NCBI RefSeq assembly: GCF_001645765.1
Contig: NZ_LWUJ01000013.1
Span: 1 to 53,959 of the forward strand
Source: Candidatus Mycoplasma haematobovis
Lineage (GTDB): Bacteria > Bacillota_I > Bacilli_A > Mycoplasmatales > Mycoplasmoidaceae
Direction of reading: 5' to 3'
DNA length: 53,959 bases
Under the pieces are notes generated by a model. The model was not told where the DNA came from, searched no databases, and saw nothing but the letters and a program-made list of their open reading frames with translations. Of this stretch, positions 6,928 to 25,508 are shown piece after piece. How positions within the stretch are numbered: position 1 is the first letter of the stretch; each line of letters opens with the position of its first letter. The translations under genes were made by a program, and so were the position numbers.

Positions 6928-7326
6928 ATGACATTCTTACTTAAAGGTGTTACAGTAGTAGCAACAACTGTTGGAATAGGTGGTGTTGGTTTGGTTGGCT
7001 CCAATTATGCTTTTCCGAAATCCGAAATCGTAGCTATTGAACCAACTGACAATAAAGAATGAGAAAATAAACTGCTTGAATTAGCAGACGAATTGAAAAA
7101 AACTAGTAATAATGGTTTAGCAGCAAAGATAGATAGCGCTCATCACAGTACTACATTGTCTTTTGTGGAAACTCCAGCAAATTCAAAAGAATTCAAAAAT
7201 AAAACAAGTGCTAGAGATGCTCTTAAAGCTTGATGTATAAGGACTGATGCACAAGAAGCAGAACTAAAAGATAAGTTATGCAAAAAAGAAGTAAAAAAAG
7301 GATGATTATTTGGAAATGATGTCTAA
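6928..7326 (+). CDS. WC/GWLF-family paralog 1
   Basis: 132 aa, ATG to TAA. The family pattern is complete here: short head MTFLLKG, Gly-rich anchor ending VGLVGSNYAF (~6-27), a charged ~70-residue middle with WENKLLEL, then the C-terminal signature ALKAWC, DKLC and KKGWLFGN. All the Trp are TGA-coded. The next gene starts within its last codons. Predicted to sit in the membrane by the anchor with the rest outside; no biochemical role recognised. Confidence 0.7.
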
Positions 7327-7636
7327 GTTAATTAAATTTCTTTATTTTGGAGCTGGTTGTGTTGGAACAGTAGTAGCAGGATCAATATCTTTATTAGCTA
7401 ACCAAAGAACAGAAGCTATTGACTTGCTACTTAAAGAATTAGTAAATGTTAAGAACCAAAGTGGTAGACAAGCGGGAATAGTGAACCAAATTAAACAAGA
7501 TGGAATGGATAATGAATTCAAAATTGAAAACAATCAATTTATAGATAGAGAAAAAGCTAAACAAACTTTAAATGATTGATGTGTTACTGGTGTTAATAAC
7601 AAAGATAAATACCTATTCAATAAGTTCTGTCACTAA
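7319..7636 (+). CDS. WC-family paralog 2, short form
   Basis: 105 aa from ATG 7319 (head MSKLIKF, like its relatives); an earlier in-frame TTG at 7310 is less likely. Overlaps paralog 1 by 8 bp. Anchor ~8-27 (YFGAGCVGTVVAGSISLL). Carries QTLNDWC and a last Cys (NKFCH) but lacks the GWLF ending, so it is a shortened or diverged member. Confidence 0.65.
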
Positions 7637-7639
7637 TTA

Positions 7640-8008
7640 ATGTCTTTACTTCTTAAAGTAGGATTGCCTTGTGTTATTGGAACTGCTGGTGCAGGTGTAG
7701 TTGGGTCTAATTGAATATTTACAACAAAAAGAATAGTTACTCTTACAAAACCTGAAGATGAAAGATGAAACGAAAAATTAGAATTATTACTTACTAAATT
7801 AAATCAAAATAGTGGATTAGATGCAAAAATAGATAAACAAACTAGTAGCCAAACGCTAGTAAGAACCACAAACCCCGCTAAATTTACTCACATCGATAAA
7901 GCCAAAAAAGCCTTGCAAGACTGGTGCAAAAGTAGTGACAAAAGTGACACAGCTACCCATGAAAAAGATTTATGTCAAGTAGAGGAAACTAAAGGCTGAA
8001 TGTTTTAG
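7640..8008 (+). CDS. WC/GWLF-family paralog 3
   Basis: 122 aa, ATG 7640 to TAG. Head MSLLLKVGLPC, anchor ending GAGVVGSNWIF, then RWNEKLELLL in the middle and ALQDWC, EKDLC and KGWMF at the end. The anchor-coding DNA (GCAGGTGTAGTTGG followed by TCTAATTGAATATTT) recurs at 8925 and 9771, which suggests recent duplication or conversion. Starts 3 bp after paralog 2. Confidence 0.7.
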
Positions 8009-8014
8009 GGCGGT

Positions 8015-8386
8015 GTGAGCTTCCCAATAAAAACCACAGTTGGATGCTTAGGTGGTTTAACAGTATGTGGTTGTTTATTAGGAAGTAATTACGTATTTAC
8101 AAAAGAAAAATTAGTAGATATTAAAGACAAAAATAGTAAAGCTTGAGACACCAAAATTACATTATTACTAAACAAAATTATTAGTACTGTTAACAATAGA
8201 GAAATAATAGACAAAATTTCCCAAAACAATCCTGGAATTTTGATAACTACTTCTGGAAAATTCTCTAATAGTGCTAAAGCTAAAGAAGCTTTACAAAACT
8301 GATGTAAAAAAAATAACAAATATGATCAAAAATTAGTTGAAGAATTATGTAAAGTTAAAGATCAAGTAGGTTGAATGTCAAAATAA
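8015..8386 (+). CDS. WC-family paralog 4
   Basis: 123 aa from GTG 8015 (another GTG two bases earlier is out of frame) to TAA. Head VSFPIKTTVGC, anchor through GCLLGSNYVF, AWDTKITLLL in the middle, and ALQNWC, EELC and VGWMSK at the end; the final LF is replaced by SK. Stop overlaps the next ATG by 1 bp. Confidence 0.68.
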
Positions 8387-8745
8387 TGTCAGTATCTTTA
8401 ATAAAGTGAGTTGCTTTAGGAATAGGAGGGGTCAGTGCCGCAACAGCAAGCACCGTAGCAATAATAAATCATAAAGCTAATATTGCTGAAGACGCACTAT
8501 GAACAGCAAGAACTGATGAACTGGCTAAGAAAATAAAAGCCGAAAGCAATAATTGAAAAAAGCTAGTTGCGGTTATTACTGGTAAAGAAGAGGAAGAAAG
8601 CATTTTTAAAATCGAAAACGACAAATTTAAAGATCCAAAAAAAGCAAAGGAAGAATTAAAAGAATGATGCCAAAATAGTGAAATAAAGGAAAGAACATAT
8701 AACAATATCAATCTTGATACTACTGTTTGTAAATTTAAAAAATAA
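8386..8745 (+). CDS. WC-family paralog 5, divergent
   Basis: 119 aa, ATG 8386 to TAA. Head MSVSLIKWVALG, Gly/Ala-rich anchor without the GSN motif, a charged middle, and ELKEWC then a lone Cys (TTVCKF) at the end; no GWLF. It resembles paralog 10 (11239-11595) in the anchor (GIGGVSAATAS against GISGIGAISGG) and in its ending, so the array seems to hold two subfamilies. Confidence 0.62.
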
Positions 8746-8924
8746 CAATTCCTTGCATAAACTACATACTACTTAGTAGTAATTAATGTATTTAAAAAAT
8801 ATCTTTAGGGTTAATTATTACTTTCGTTAAAGGTCTAGTTATTTTGAGCAGAAATTTAAAAATAATGAAATATTACTAAAAATCAACTAATTATTTAAAA
8901 GTAAGTAAAAGTTAGTTTTTTCAC
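8746..8924. other. Intergenic gap in paralog array
   Basis: 179 bp, very AT-rich. An 8-bp palindrome-like ACTACTTAGTAGT is seen near 8770-8782. No complete family member is readable; a promoter for paralog 6 may lie here, but I cannot place its boxes. Confidence 0.3.
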
Positions 8925-9314
8925 ATGTTAAGTTTAGTTAAATTTGGAATGCCTTGTTTTTTGGGAGTTGGGAGTGCAGGTGTAGTTGGATCTAATTGAA
9001 TATTTAAAAAAGAAGAGGTGTTACTAATAGATAGCGAAGACAAAGAGGATTGAGACCAAAAGGTTAAAGACTTGTTTAAAAAAATTAAAAATGGAGATAC
9101 TAATTTAAAATCACAAATTGCTGGAACTAGTGAACATGCGAAAAGCCTAGAAATAGAAGATAGTAATAATAATAACTTTAAAGAACCAGCAAAAGCAAGG
9201 GATTCTTTAATAGCTTGATGCCAAAGTAAAAGGGATTCAAACGAGGATATAGTTACAGAACTATGCAAAGAGAAACAATGAACTGGCTGATTGTTTGGTA
9301 ATCGAATGGGATAG
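8925..9314 (+). CDS. WC/GWLF-family paralog 6
   Basis: 129 aa, ATG to TAG. Head MLSLVKFGMPC, anchor ending AGVVGSNWIFKK, DWDQKVKDL in the middle, LIAWC, TELC and TGWLFGNR at the end. Its 5' ~70 bp is very close to that of paralogs 7 (9771) and 11 (11768), whereas the middle is unrelated. That mosaic suits a conserved anchor with a variable exposed part. Confidence 0.7.
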
Positions 9315-9389
9315 TTGCATTATTTTTAGATACTGTTAACATTATTAATTTTTAAGAATATCGTAATAGATAATTAAGGGGACGTTTTT

Positions 9390-9767
9390 ATGATCAAACT
9401 GTTGATTTTACCTATTTTAGGATTAACAACAGTAAGTGGTAGATTAATTGGTAGTAATTATTTATTTAAAAAAATCATAAATGTGGATTTGGAATAAAAT
9501 GGTGGTAATTAACAATGAGATTTAAAACTTAAATTATTAATACCAAAATTAACTTCAAATACTCAGTTAAGTGTAAAAATAAATTCAGGAGGTGAAAGTG
9601 TTAATAATTTAGCTATTAACAGCTCCGCTCCTGAGGATTTTGCCCAAAAAGATAATGCAAGAAATGATTTAAAGAAATGGTGTTTAAAAAGAGAAAAAGA
9701 GGAGTATGAAAAATTGCATGAGAATGAATTGTGTAAAATATCAAAAGAGATAGGTTGGTTATTTTAA
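9390..9767 (+). pseudogene. WC/GWLF-family copy with two internal stops
   Basis: Reads as a full-length member in one frame from ATG 9390 (MIKLLILPILG, RLIGSNYLFKK) to TAA 9765-9767 (DLKKWC, NELC, IGWLF). It is interrupted by TAA after NVDLE (codon 36) and again five codons later. The frame is kept across both stops, so decay is recent or the copy serves as a conversion donor. Confidence 0.75.
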
Positions 9768-9770
9768 ATT

Positions 9771-10139
9771 ATGACAGGTTTTTGAAAAATGACTATTCCT
9801 TGCTTTTTGGTGGCAGGTGGCACAGGTGTAGTTGGATCTAATTGAATATTTAAAAAGAAATATCTAATAAAAGTAAAAGATTCAGAAGAAGGAGTTTGGG
9901 ACCAAAAGCTAGAAGAGCTTAAAAAAATGTTAACACCTTCAAATACTAGAGATGAAATTGCACAAAGCATTGGCGGAGGAGAAAAAACTAATCTTGCTTT
10001 AAATTCCAATAATAGCGGATTCACTGATGTAGCTAATGCTAAGGTTACTTTAAAAAAATGATGTAATGGAAAAAATCACGAAAAAGAATACTTTGACAAA
10101 CTGTGTAAAAAAGTTGAATATAAAAATTTAATCTTTTAA
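9771..10139 (+). CDS. WC-family paralog 7
   Basis: 122 aa, ATG 9771 to TAA. Head MTGFWKMTIPC, anchor GGTGVVGSNWIFKK, VWDQKLEEL in the middle, TLKKWC and DKLC near the end, final NLIF in place of GWLF. It begins 3 bp after the pseudogene stop. Two TGA-Trp in the first 25 codons. Confidence 0.7.
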
Positions 10140-10140
10140 G

Positions 10141-10533
10141 CTCGGGTTATTATTCCCAATTAAGGTTTTGGTTGCGGGTATTTGTTATGCAGCTGCTGGC
10201 GGAAGTTTAGTGGGGAGTAATTATATATTTAAAATAGAGCGACTTGTAGATATTCCTCAAGACGGAGCAGAAAATAAATGAGAAGAAAAATTACCTATAT
10301 TACTTAAAAAAATTATTGCAAATAGCGGTTTAAGTGTCAAGATTGATCCGCAAAAGCATTCTAGCAATTTAGCTAAAACAGGCGCTTCTGGAAGTGAAGA
10401 ATTTAGCAATAAAAATGATGCAAAAGCTTCTTTAAAAGCTTGGTGCAAAAAAGAAAATAAACAAACAGGAGAAAAAGAGCATGAAGAAGAATTATGTAAA
10501 GAATCTGTTAAAAAAGAGTGATTGTTTGGTTAA
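10141..10533 (+). CDS. WC/GWLF-family paralog 8, start codon missing or unusual
   Basis: Family alignment places the N-terminus at about 10141 (LGLLFPIKVLVAG, then GGSLVGSNYIF), but no ATG, GTG or TTG is available there. The frame is closed by TAA at 10129, and the first standard start is TTG 10168, which would cut the head to MVAGICYAAAGG. The remainder is intact: KWEEKLPILL, SLKAWC, EELC, KKEWLFG, TAA 10531-10533. Either a non-standard start is used or expression is lost. Confidence 0.55.
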
Positions 10534-10542
10534 TTAAAAATT

Positions 10543-10905
10543 GTGTCATTATTTTTAAAAATGGTACTACCAAGTACATTGTTTGTTTCTGGTGGGAGTT
10601 TGGTGGGTAGTAATTACTTATTTAAGAGAATGAGGTGGATTGATATTCCGAGCAAAGTTGACGAGAGATGAAATGAAAAATTAAATGAACTTTTGAAAAA
10701 GATAGAGAAAGATTTTCATTTGGCAAGAAAGATAGACAAGACATTGAATGCAAGAAGATTAGCAAAAAATGGAAATGATTTTACTAACCGTGACGAAGCT
10801 AAAGAAGCATTGCAAGAATGATGTGCAAAAAAAGATAAAACAGAAGCAAAAGAACACTCAAGATCTTTGTGTCACGTACAAGAACAAAAAGGCTGGTTGT
10901 TTTAG
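10543..10905 (+). CDS. WC/GWLF-family paralog 9
   Basis: 120 aa from GTG 10543 to TAG. Head VSLFLKMVLPS, anchor ending GGSLVGSNYLF, RWNEKLNELL in the middle, ALQEWC, RSLC and KGWLF at the end. More basic middle part than its neighbours. Starts 9 bp after the stop of paralog 8. Confidence 0.68.
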
Positions 10906-11236
10906 TAGAACTTAGCAAACGAAGTTATTATTAATTTAAAGAAATAAAAATTAGGAATTATGGTTAGTCTATCATTTAATAGTGCAAATGTAAAATATTT
11001 TGCTTAACAATTCCAAATTAACGTTTCTTTCAAAAACCTATTATTAAAAGTCGATAATTCATTGTTTATTAAAGTTAAGCTATTTGTCGAATAATAAAGT
11101 AATAGACACAAATAAAATTGATATTAGAGGAACCAAAAACTAAAAAGCACCACAAACTTGATGAAACAAAGATTTAGAGATAAAAAAATTAATTAATGAA
11201 TTTTGTAAAAACGAAAAAAAAGATTGATTATTTTAA
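10906..11236 (+). pseudogene. Heavily decayed WC-family copy
   Basis: The last ~30 codons are readable (TWWNKDLEIKK, INEFC, KKDWLF, TAA 11234-11236) and match the C-terminal signature, without the WC. Upstream there are stops in all frames and no anchor. Nothing else is seen in this 331-bp stretch. Confidence 0.5.
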
Positions 11237-11238
11237 TA

Positions 11239-11595
11239 ATGTCAACTGTAAATTACAAATTACTGATTTTAGGAGGAATTTCAGGAATTGGTGCCATATC
11301 TGGGGGAGTTGTTGCATTAAATAGACACCTTTCAAATGCCAAAGAAGAAGCTTGAAACACAAACACAAAAAAGCTAGAAGAGAAGGTGGTTTTTGTGCAT
11401 GGAAAAGTAGATGCCTCACTCAATGATTTAAAAGATTCTATTCGAGAGATAGATGTTGATTTAGCTTTAGAATTAAATAGAAATAATGATGGATTTAAGT
11501 ATTTTGATAAAGCAAAACAAGCTTTAAAAAATTGATGTTCTGACGAGTCCAAAAAAAGCAAAGAAGCGTTGTCTAAAGAAATGTATTGTGTGTAA
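11239..11595 (+). CDS. WC-family paralog 10, divergent subfamily
   Basis: 118 aa, ATG to TAA. Anchor ~9-28 (LILGGISGIGAISGGVVAL), AWNTNTKKLEEK in the middle with a coiled-coil-like heptad look, ALKNWC then a terminal YCV. Like paralog 5 it lacks GSN and GWLF. It starts 2 bp after the decayed copy. Confidence 0.62.
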
Positions 11596-11757
11596 AGGAG
11601 ACTTAATAAAATAAAGCCTTAAAATCAAAAATAAGCACTAACGCTTATGATTTATAAAAGAGCTTTGTAGACTTGATTTAATAAAGATCCTTAAGGTAAG
11701 GAAAAGTTAATTCAGGAGTTGTGCCAAAGAACTAAAAATCAAGAATATTCTTTTTAA
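11596..11757 (+). pseudogene. Decayed WC-family copy
   Basis: From about 11620 one frame reads fragments of the family end: TWFNKDP, stop, KEKLIQELC, EYSF, TAA 11755-11757. Internal TAG and TAA and no start codon. Counted as a relic of another tandem member. Confidence 0.45.
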
Positions 11758-11767
11758 AAGTCATTTT

Positions 11768-12145
11768 ATGTCTTATTTATCAAAAATAGTTATTCCTTGT
11801 ATTTTGGGAGTTGGGAGTGCAAGTTTGATTGGGTCTAATTGAGCATTTAAGAGGGAGAAATTAATAAAAATTGAAAATGAAGAGATTAATTCTGGCATAT
11901 GAGATGAAAAAATAAATATTCTTAAAAATAAATTTGAAAATTCACCTAAAAGGAGTCAACTAGAAATTGATTTAAGTGGTAGGAATCCTGCGTCTTTTAA
12001 TCTTAATGCGGAAAGAACAGATTTTGCAGATAGAGAAAGAGCAAAAGAAAAATTAAAGGCTTGATGTAAAAAACCTGTTGATCACGAGGAATTATATGAT
12101 GAACTTTGTAAAAAATCTCAAAAAAAGGGATGATTGTTTGGATAA
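11768..12145 (+). CDS. WC/GWLF-family paralog 11
   Basis: 125 aa, ATG 11768 to TAA. Head MSYLSKIVIPC, anchor GSASLIGSNWAFKR, IWDEKINILK in the middle, KLKAWC, DELC and KKGWLFG at the end. The last complete member of the array. Confidence 0.7.
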
Positions 12146-17331: not shown

Positions 17332-17874
17332 TTATATGGTCATCAACTCTTTCTCTTTTTTTGAATAAATTTCCTCTAATCTCCCATTCATTACTTTAAT
17401 TTTTGAATCCAACTCATTCATATTTTTTTTCTCTAAATCCTCAGAAAGCTCTTCTTTTTTAATAAGCACCTGAAAATCCTTCCTCACTACTCTCAAAGCT
17501 ACTTTTGCCTTCTCTAAATACTCCTTAGCTTCTTTAACTGACCTCTTCCTAGTTTCCTCAGTAGGGGGCAATAAAGATATTCTTATTAAATCAGACTGTA
17601 CTATAGGACTAAACTCTGGCTTATGTTTCTGAATGGCTTTATTTATTTCTTGAATTAAAGAAATATCATAAGGTTTAATTTCAATAGTCCTAGCAGAAGG
17701 AATAGTAATATTAGCTAACTCATTAAGCTTCATTTCTGAGCCATAAGCCACGACTAATACATTAGCTACTAAATCAGGATGCACTCTAGAAACATACAAC
17801 TTCTTAAAGTTATTCTCTAATCTCTCAAAAATCTCCCCAAACTCCTTATCTAAAGAGCTTCAAATAGCACTCAT
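17332..17874 (-). CDS. frr: Ribosome recycling factor
   Basis: Splits post-termination ribosomes together with EF-G. 180 aa, normal length. ATG 17874 is chosen because it overlaps the pyrH stop (TAATG) and the frame needs a TGA-Trp (MSAIWSSLDKEF). Family features: VSRVHPDLV, YGSEMKLNELANITIPSART, IKPYD, RISLLPPTEETRK, and a helical C-terminal part. Ends in TAA 3 bp before the cdsA start. Confidence 0.95.
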
Positions 17875-18581
17875 TAATTGATAGAGGTATACTCTATATC
17901 GCCCTTTAAAGCCTTAACAAAAGAATCCTTAGTATCTTGATTAAATACTAATAACTCTACTTTGTAAGGAGCTAATAATGCTAAAGCTGTATGATCCATT
18001 ACTTTAAGCTTTCTAAATAATATTTCATCATATGAAAGTTTTGGTAAGAATACTGCATCTTTATATTTATTTGGATCTTTATCATATACACCCTTAACAC
18101 TATTCTTGCCTATTAATACTTTAGTAGCCCCTATCTCAATAGCTCTAATGGCAGCACAAGTATCAGTACTTACAAAAGGCATCCCAGTTCCAGCTCCAAA
18201 TATTACTACTTCATGAGCATCTAAAGCTCTAGAGATATTTTCTTGATTTAACTCTTCTGCCACTCTTGGACATGAAAGAGCAGAATAAATTCTGCTCTTA
18301 ATATTCTTTTTTTTCAAGTAATTCTGTATAGTAATACTATTCATTAAAGTGGCTAACATTCCTATATAGTGTGAAGACTGATCTTCAAGAGCATCTAACT
18401 TATTCTCGCTCCCCCTTCATATATTCCCCCCTCCCACTACTAAAGCTAAATCGTATTTTTGTAATAACTCTTCTATTTGATCTACTAAATTACTAATAAT
18501 TTCATTATTAAAAAAAAAGGTTTCATTAAGTTTTTTTAAATTTCCACCACTTAACTTCAAAAGGATACGCTCCCTACTCAT
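17874..18581 (-). CDS. pyrH: UMP kinase
   Basis: Phosphorylates UMP to UDP with ATP; amino-acid-kinase fold. 235 aa, ATG 18581. Motifs: LLKLSGGNL near the start, VVGGGNIWRG, SHYIGMLATLMNS, FGAGTGMPFVSTDTCA, and GVYDKDPNKY. The initiating ATG lies inside the end of the preceding gene (8-bp overlap), and its own stop overlaps the frr start by one base. Confidence 0.96.
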
Positions 18582-19029
18582 TTAAACTACTAAAGTATTT
18601 TTCAAGTATAAAAAGTAAAGGATAGTTCTGCGTACCACACTCAAAAGACCTGTAATCCTTTCGGATAGTATAGCTCTCTCGACCTAAAGAACTAATACTA
18701 TTAGCTCCTATGTATAAAGGTTCTAAATCCCCCTTATAACCTAAAATAGCAACGCCTGCTCTAGGTACAAAAGTAAAAAAAGAAGCTTCCTTAGCTACTT
18801 CTTGTATGGAATTTAAATGAATAGCTTTAACTTTATTATGCTCTAATAATTTATTAGCGTAATACAAATTAGGAAGCAAAGCTATTTCCCCATCTCACTT
18901 AAAATGCTTCTTAATTAGCTCTCTTAAAGAACTAATTCTTTGTAATAACTCTTCTCTTCAAAGCGCATTAGAATTATTTAAATTTATTATTTCCTTTAAG
19001 TAATATTTCTTTACTACTTCTTTAAACAA
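18574..19029 (-). CDS. Reduced NifS/class-V aminotransferase-like protein, probably non-catalytic
   Basis: 151 aa from TTG 19029, directly after the atpD TAG and in the same frame. The N-terminal NNSNALWREELLQRI then RELIKKHF resembles the NPSS.H...A...R..I helix of cysteine desulfurases. FVPRAGVAIL, LEPLYIGANS and FECGTQNYPLL resemble their GPKGVGxLY, LEPLxxGGGQ and RxGTxN parts. The large PLP-binding middle is absent and the lysine position (SxHKxxGPxG) reads SFFTFVPRAG. This is where atpC (epsilon) normally sits, but I see no epsilon signature. A weak, by-eye family call; it may be a relic or a repurposed protein. Confidence 0.4.
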
Positions 19030-20460
<1,431 letters not shown>

Positions 20461-24029: not shown

Positions 24030-24323
<294 letters not shown>

Positions 24324-24328
24324 AATCA

Positions 24329-24643
<315 letters not shown>

Positions 24644-24646
24644 CTA

Positions 24647-24937
<291 letters not shown>

Positions 24938-24955
24938 AGCTATTGAACGGTAAAT

Positions 24956-25249
<294 letters not shown>

Positions 25250-25250
25250 A

Positions 25251-25508
25251 TTAAACTCCTGCCGCTAACAAAGCCAAGAATATACCAAGAATAGGAGAGA
25301 AGAAAACTGAATAATCACAAATAGTTGAGATAATCATATACTTTTTGAATACTAAATCTTCACTCCTTGGATTTCTAGCCAAAGTTGCTATTCCTTTTCC
25401 TCTAATATATCCAGAACTTATCGCAAAAACAAAAGAAAGTATGAAAACAAATACTATTCCAACTCACTTTCACTCTTCTGAACTGCTTAGAAGAACTATT
25501 GAAAACAT
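25251..25508 (-). CDS. Divergent fifth c-subunit-like proteolipid with Asp at the carboxylate site
   Basis: 85 aa, ATG 25508 to TAA. Aligns with the four atpE products without a gap across SSGYIRGKGIATLARNPRSE and KKYMIISTICDYSVFFS: the loop ARNP is kept, and the proton-carrier Glu of the others is Asp65 here (CES against CDY). The second helix is otherwise quite different (FSPILGIFLALLAAG). It lies between atpB and the four atpE genes. It may be a minor ring subunit or an assembly or anchoring paralog. Family membership is fairly sure; function is inferred. Confidence 0.7.

Follow-up and report, generated by a model that had tools for sequence, protein, structure and literature searches.

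A 151-codon open reading frame located immediately behind atpD in a blood-parasitic mycoplasma that reads TGA as Trp, a congener of Mycoplasma haemofelis and Mycoplasma haemocanis, is judged from sequence comparison to encode a degenerate and catalytically dead form of SufS, a type II cysteine desulfurase. The product probably acts as the subunit without catalytic residues in a type II (SufS-like) cysteine desulfurase that is a heterodimer, the partner being a 329-aa SufS encoded elsewhere in the same genome. A broader proposal, favored with slightly less confidence, is that the hemoplasmas and one sister lineage possess an obligate heterodimeric desulfurase in which a single active site is built from two reciprocally degenerate paralogs, the one of approximately 151 aa contributing only the loops that cross the dimer.

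A Degenerate SufS Gene Behind atpD

Within the 53,959-nucleotide stretch of DNA analyzed here (the window), the frame is open under genetic code 4 and begins with a TTG codon directly behind the TAG of atpD, in the same frame and with no spacer, a placement that a preliminary description of this DNA had observed (Table 1). Homologs are found in ten related genomes, giving 11 in total with that of the window, and those at the equivalent locus of M. haemocanis and M. haemofelis match the window protein with E-values of 5e-36 and 8e-35, at approximately 45% identity. The proteins of these two species are 186 aa long; the remaining hemoplasma genomes encode forms of 241-277 aa, and the sister lineage, designated G003, one of 304 aa. 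The frame is a genuine protein-coding gene subject to purifying selection, because dN/dS between M. haemocanis and M. haemofelis is 0.124 (dS 0.94, dN 0.12, 186 codons); for the same species pair, the ratios are 0.076 for the catalytic SufS gene and 0.035 for pyrH. The start codon is TTG in nine of the ten hemoplasma genes examined, that of the window included, and GTG in the tenth.

Table 1. Location of the degenerate sufS gene, its neighbors and its retained motifs within the window.
Feature	Position	Strand	Remarks
Degenerate SufS (proposed partner subunit), 151 aa	18574..19029	-	Lacks the PLP Lys, the Cys and the C-terminal domain
atpD (F1 beta)	19030..20457	-	Upstream neighbor at the end of the atp operon; its TAG abuts the TTG of the degenerate gene
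pyrH (UMP kinase)	17874..18581	-	Downstream neighbor; its start (ATG) and the 3' end of the 151-codon frame overlap by 8 nt
AAGGAG	19042..19047	-	Possible ribosome-binding site within the 3' end of atpD, 12 nt upstream of the TTG; from reading of the sequence
Codons N16-L17-N18-N19	18973..18984	-	Corresponds to NPHN, the motif of the alpha3-alpha4 loop in mycoplasma SufS; the catalytic copy has a deletion here
Codons 104-135	18625..18720	-	Gly-rich loop (P104..G108), counterpart of the beta-latch hairpin, and E130-C-GTQN135 motif

The NifS-like relationship noted in the preliminary description is weak when the window protein is considered alone, with a match to Aminotran_5 (PF00266) that falls below the cut-off (E 0.23), but becomes clear when the family is considered together. 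Specifically, hhalign aligns the 11-member family to mycoplasma SufS with a probability of 97.6% (E 4e-12, 223 columns), the three-member haemofelis-type group falling on columns 222-294 of the SufS profile, and this alignment supports homology to class V PLP enzymes of the SufS type. A profile of the family was also used to search 320 genomes of the order, and the hits ranking below the 11 true members were SufS; all 19 of the next-match loci examined are complete SufS frames with the lysine, and a GTxN-type motif was recognized in 18 of them. Searches with the window protein alone of NCBIfam, the PDB and the genome contigs returned nothing useful, and a PDB search with the family profile yielded only a spurious repeat match and weak desulfurase matches. 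The structure prediction and fold search proposed in the preliminary description were completed and gave no significant match: AlphaFold models reached mean pLDDT values of 55 and 36, a low confidence that reflects the fact that only four sequences were usable, and the best Foldseek hit to the pLDDT-55 model had an E-value of 0.78, IscS/cysteine desulfurase and C-S lyases being among the best rows.

The residues retained and lost are consistent with a protein devoid of catalysis. The columns of the PLP-binding lysine and the stacking histidine hold a gap or another residue in the window protein, so that the missing lysine reported previously is confirmed, and the column of the catalytic Cys (RxGxxC, C-terminal domain) is empty in all 11 family members. 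The G, T, and N of GTxN are invariant in the same 11 proteins; that of the window carries Tyr126 where its relatives have Pro before the GT motif. The earlier view that the protein resembles the two ends of a cysteine desulfurase requires correction, as the match comprises an N-terminal portion of the large domain together with the residues that immediately follow the lysine; the middle of this domain is also lost and the true C-terminal end is absent.

Reciprocal Loss of Active Site Residues

The only other class V protein in the genome is the 329-aa SufS (G000:C1, about 196475-197461), for which the closest solved structure is 8ztp. Two tandem gapA-like genes adjoin its gene (L153 2394-4439, G000:C1). 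This protein keeps the residues of its own site, including Lys, His, Asp, Gln, Cys, and Arg (12/12 in the genome of the window), while the alpha3-alpha4 loop, the Gly-rich loop with the beta-latch hairpin, and the GTxN motif have been deleted or replaced. GTxN and the alpha3-alpha4 loop are gone from the catalytic copies of all 11 genomes, and the segment corresponding to codons 104-135 of the degenerate gene is exchanged for a shorter stretch ending in Leu-Asp, a dipeptide invariant in the ten copies compared.

The pattern was quantified in an alignment of 73 intact SufS proteins from other genomes of the family, the 11 catalytic copies, and the 11 degenerate paralogs. Twelve cis positions were defined (Asp of DNA(A/S), Thr and His around PLP, Asn, Asp, Gln, Ser-His-Lys, Arg, Cys, and Arg), together with nine trans positions in the elements that cross the dimer (alpha3-alpha4 loop, Gly-rich loop/beta-latch, and GTxN). 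The consensus residue occupies 130 of 132 cis cells in the catalytic copies versus 7 of 132 in the degenerate paralogs, and 6 of 99 trans cells versus 72 of 99, respectively; these counts are descriptive and do not represent independent trials, as the positions were picked after the alignment had been seen and the sequences are related. In all 73 of the SufS proteins from elsewhere in the family, both sets of sites are intact.

Pfam coverage reveals the same complementarity genome by genome, the catalytic copies matching profile positions of approximately 1-217 and 257/274-371 and the degenerate paralogs approximately 210-279; for the 329-aa SufS, the match skips 218-256, the very stretch matched by its paralog. 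The complementary pattern extends across genera g1 and g5, and in G003 (genus g2) a catalytic copy with the same losses is accompanied by the 304-aa partner. Altogether, the reciprocal pattern is present in 11 of 11 genomes of a single clade, composed of the hemoplasmas and G003. Nearly all other genomes of the family carry one SufS matching the whole Pfam profile, and the degenerate paralog was found as a separate gene in none of those searched. At the level of sequence, homology, reciprocal loss, strict co-occurrence, purifying selection, and a single origin are established for this gene pair.

A Putative Heterodimeric Cysteine Desulfurase

The structural logic of the proposal derives from the reference type II SufS enzymes (PF00266, class V) of Escherichia coli (1i29/6mr2) and Bacillus subtilis (5xt5). 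In an ordinary SufS homodimer, each site is composed of the Lys, His, Asp, Gln, Cys, and Arg of one subunit and the loops of the other; the Thr of GTxN comes from the other subunit and acts across the dimer. The segments lost by the catalytic copy are those that a partner would supply, since such elements of SufS reach into the site of the neighboring subunit. Consistent with this, SufE bound at one site is contacted by the alpha3-alpha4 loop, that of Arg56, from the neighboring monomer, and Arg56 is able to make contact with the sulfur of the substrate (PMC11408855); in an archaeal enzyme, a Thr has been described that bonds the PLP phosphate (PMC5426080). The hemoplasma pair would therefore retain one functional active site per dimer. 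That the two proteins physically associate, are active together, and deliver sulfur to the acceptor suggested below is considered probable.

Comparison with known systems highlights both similarities and differences. The degenerate paralog shares with SufS the homology of the large domain, the N of the alpha3-alpha4 loop, the position of the Gly-rich loop, and GTxN, and the catalytic copy keeps all residues of its own site; known SufS enzymes, however, are homodimers with two complete sites, whereas here the two sets of residues are distributed over two genes, neither product of which is complete. Among fold type I PLP enzymes, the eukaryotic serine palmitoyltransferase LCB1/LCB2 is a heterodimer of full-size subunits with the lysine on one subunit only, an arrangement like that proposed here, although it belongs to another family and its partner has not been cut to 151 aa. 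Glycine decarboxylase GcvPA/GcvPB likewise pairs fold type I subunits that are duplicates of each other, only one of them active, but differs in family and in the larger size of its subunits. The term heterodimeric cysteine desulfurase has been applied to NFS1-ISD11-ACP and SufS-SufE (PMC11021402, PMC12192291), which share with the proposed pair the need of a cysteine desulfurase for an accessory protein; in those systems, however, the accessory proteins are not relatives of the enzyme, and NFS1 and SufS remain homodimers with complete sites. No description of a divided desulfurase was encountered in the open-access papers searched.

If the proposal is true, the pair constitutes a clear example from nature of a single active site split between duplicated genes along a dimer interface, with intermediates of the split preserved in living species, and confirmation would make it an unusual instance of an active site divided between two genes. 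The pair also offers a testable route to determining which SufS residues work across the dimer. A partner gene that is likely essential would be overlooked if hemoplasma genomes were annotated as containing an ordinary NifS/SufS and a hypothetical protein.

Alternative Interpretations

Several other explanations for the 151-aa protein deserve consideration. It may be a pseudoenzyme with a regulatory or scaffolding role toward the catalytic SufS (or SufU/MnmA) but no part in completing the active site of SufS, in the manner of ISD11 for NFS1; retention by selection of a non-catalytic homolog fits such a role, as does the loss of much of the large domain from the 151-aa form. This reading is nonetheless considered unlikely, as it leaves unexplained why, within one set of 11 genomes, it is precisely the cross-dimer segments that the degenerate paralog has kept and the enzyme has lost. 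Far less probable still is that both SufS copies are decaying relics of a desulfurase function on its way out. Divergence is indeed fast, as seen in long branches and in an identity of only approximately 45% between the window protein and those of its congeners, but dN/dS values of 0.12 and 0.08 for the degenerate and catalytic copies, respectively, catalytic residues that are almost invariant in the 11 genomes, and the intactness of both genes in every one of them all speak against decay.

The remaining explanations arise from the position of the gene. As no epsilon subunit had been recognized in or near the operon, the preliminary description suggested that epsilon is dispensable or that the 151-aa protein, which lies where atpC would be expected, took its place. 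The absence of epsilon holds within the window but not genome-wide, since the whole-genome HMM search that the same description had called for recovers an 86-aa atpC (G000:C11:53467-53694, PF02823 E 5e-11) adjoining a tatD-like gene, a result which that description had itself regarded as contradicting its suggestion. An epsilon gene is likewise found elsewhere in all 11 genomes carrying the degenerate paralog, no PF02823 match was found in the 151-aa protein, which is homologous to SufS and not to epsilon, and the G003 paralog lies away from atpD; substitution for, or dispensing with, epsilon is thus scarcely credible, and the placement where atpC would be expected is put down to gene rearrangement. 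Hardly any weight can be given, either, to the suggestion that stop readthrough appends the protein to beta as a C-terminal extension. The common frame and lack of a spacer in the window genome invite this reading, but the arrangement is not conserved: in the nine genomes with the paralog directly behind atpD, the gaps are 0, 0, 1, 1, 1, 2, 2, 3, and 3 nt, the paralog is out of frame with atpD in five, and a TTG or GTG start is present at the boundary in every case. Because the gap varies from 0 to 3 nt among relatives, the shared frame in the window is attributed to chance. As a separate observation, the relocated atpC (L002 5441-5701) matches the beta-sandwich domain only, and its 86 aa leave little room for C-terminal helices.

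Origin of the Pair and Sulfur Metabolism

Returning to the heterodimeric desulfurase, one duplication and division is the simplest account of its origin. In an EF-Tu tree, the 11 host genomes group as a single clade (support 98/96), and the eight longer degenerate paralogs themselves form one clade (support 100/99). SufS may thus have been duplicated in the common ancestor of the hemoplasmas and G003, after which one copy would have retained its own-site residues and lost the loops, while the other would have retained the loops and lost the rest. Duplication with reciprocal loss is preferred over gene fission, in which the missing piece of SufS would have been cut out, because the two copies overlap along the large domain; fission was rejected on this ground.

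Subsequently, the degenerate gene would have been relocated behind atpD in the hemoplasmas and trimmed in steps, from 304 to about 241-277, then 186, and finally 151 aa. In G003, it lies directly before a SufU-like frame, which is followed by nfo, a position equivalent to that of sufS directly before sufU in six intact genomes examined; the SufU-like frame has no Pfam match and was named by eye from its sequence and position, making this a weaker assignment. In Mycoplasma haemominutum, another frame separates atpD from the degenerate gene. The degenerate and catalytic genes are unlinked in all 11 genomes, which counts against the proposed pairing, as do the losses from the window protein of the Pro before the GT motif and of the middle of the large domain.

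With respect to sulfur use, IscS/NifS and/or SufU have been proposed as the sulfur donor for MnmA in mollicutes (PMC4014445). MnmA is encoded in 11 of the 11 split genomes and SufBD in none, and therefore tRNA thiolation is likely the main use of sulfur in these organisms; SufU is detected by Pfam in 6 of the 11. The pair would produce a cysteine-derived persulfide, most likely for tRNA thiolation by MnmA and perhaps by way of SufU.

Other Features of the Window

Repeated frames of the restriction-modification specificity type (HsdS-like), identified by eye only, lie at 233-2738, and an array of paralogous frames of approximately 120 aa, which have in common a segment at the N terminus and a conserved Trp-Cys motif at the C terminus, extends over 6928-12145 on the plus strand. 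Five tandem atpE-like (c subunit) frames are located at 24030-25508 on the minus strand; four share a near-identical core with a variable N-terminal segment of approximately 30 aa, the fifth is diverged, and a c-ring of mixed subunits is possible.
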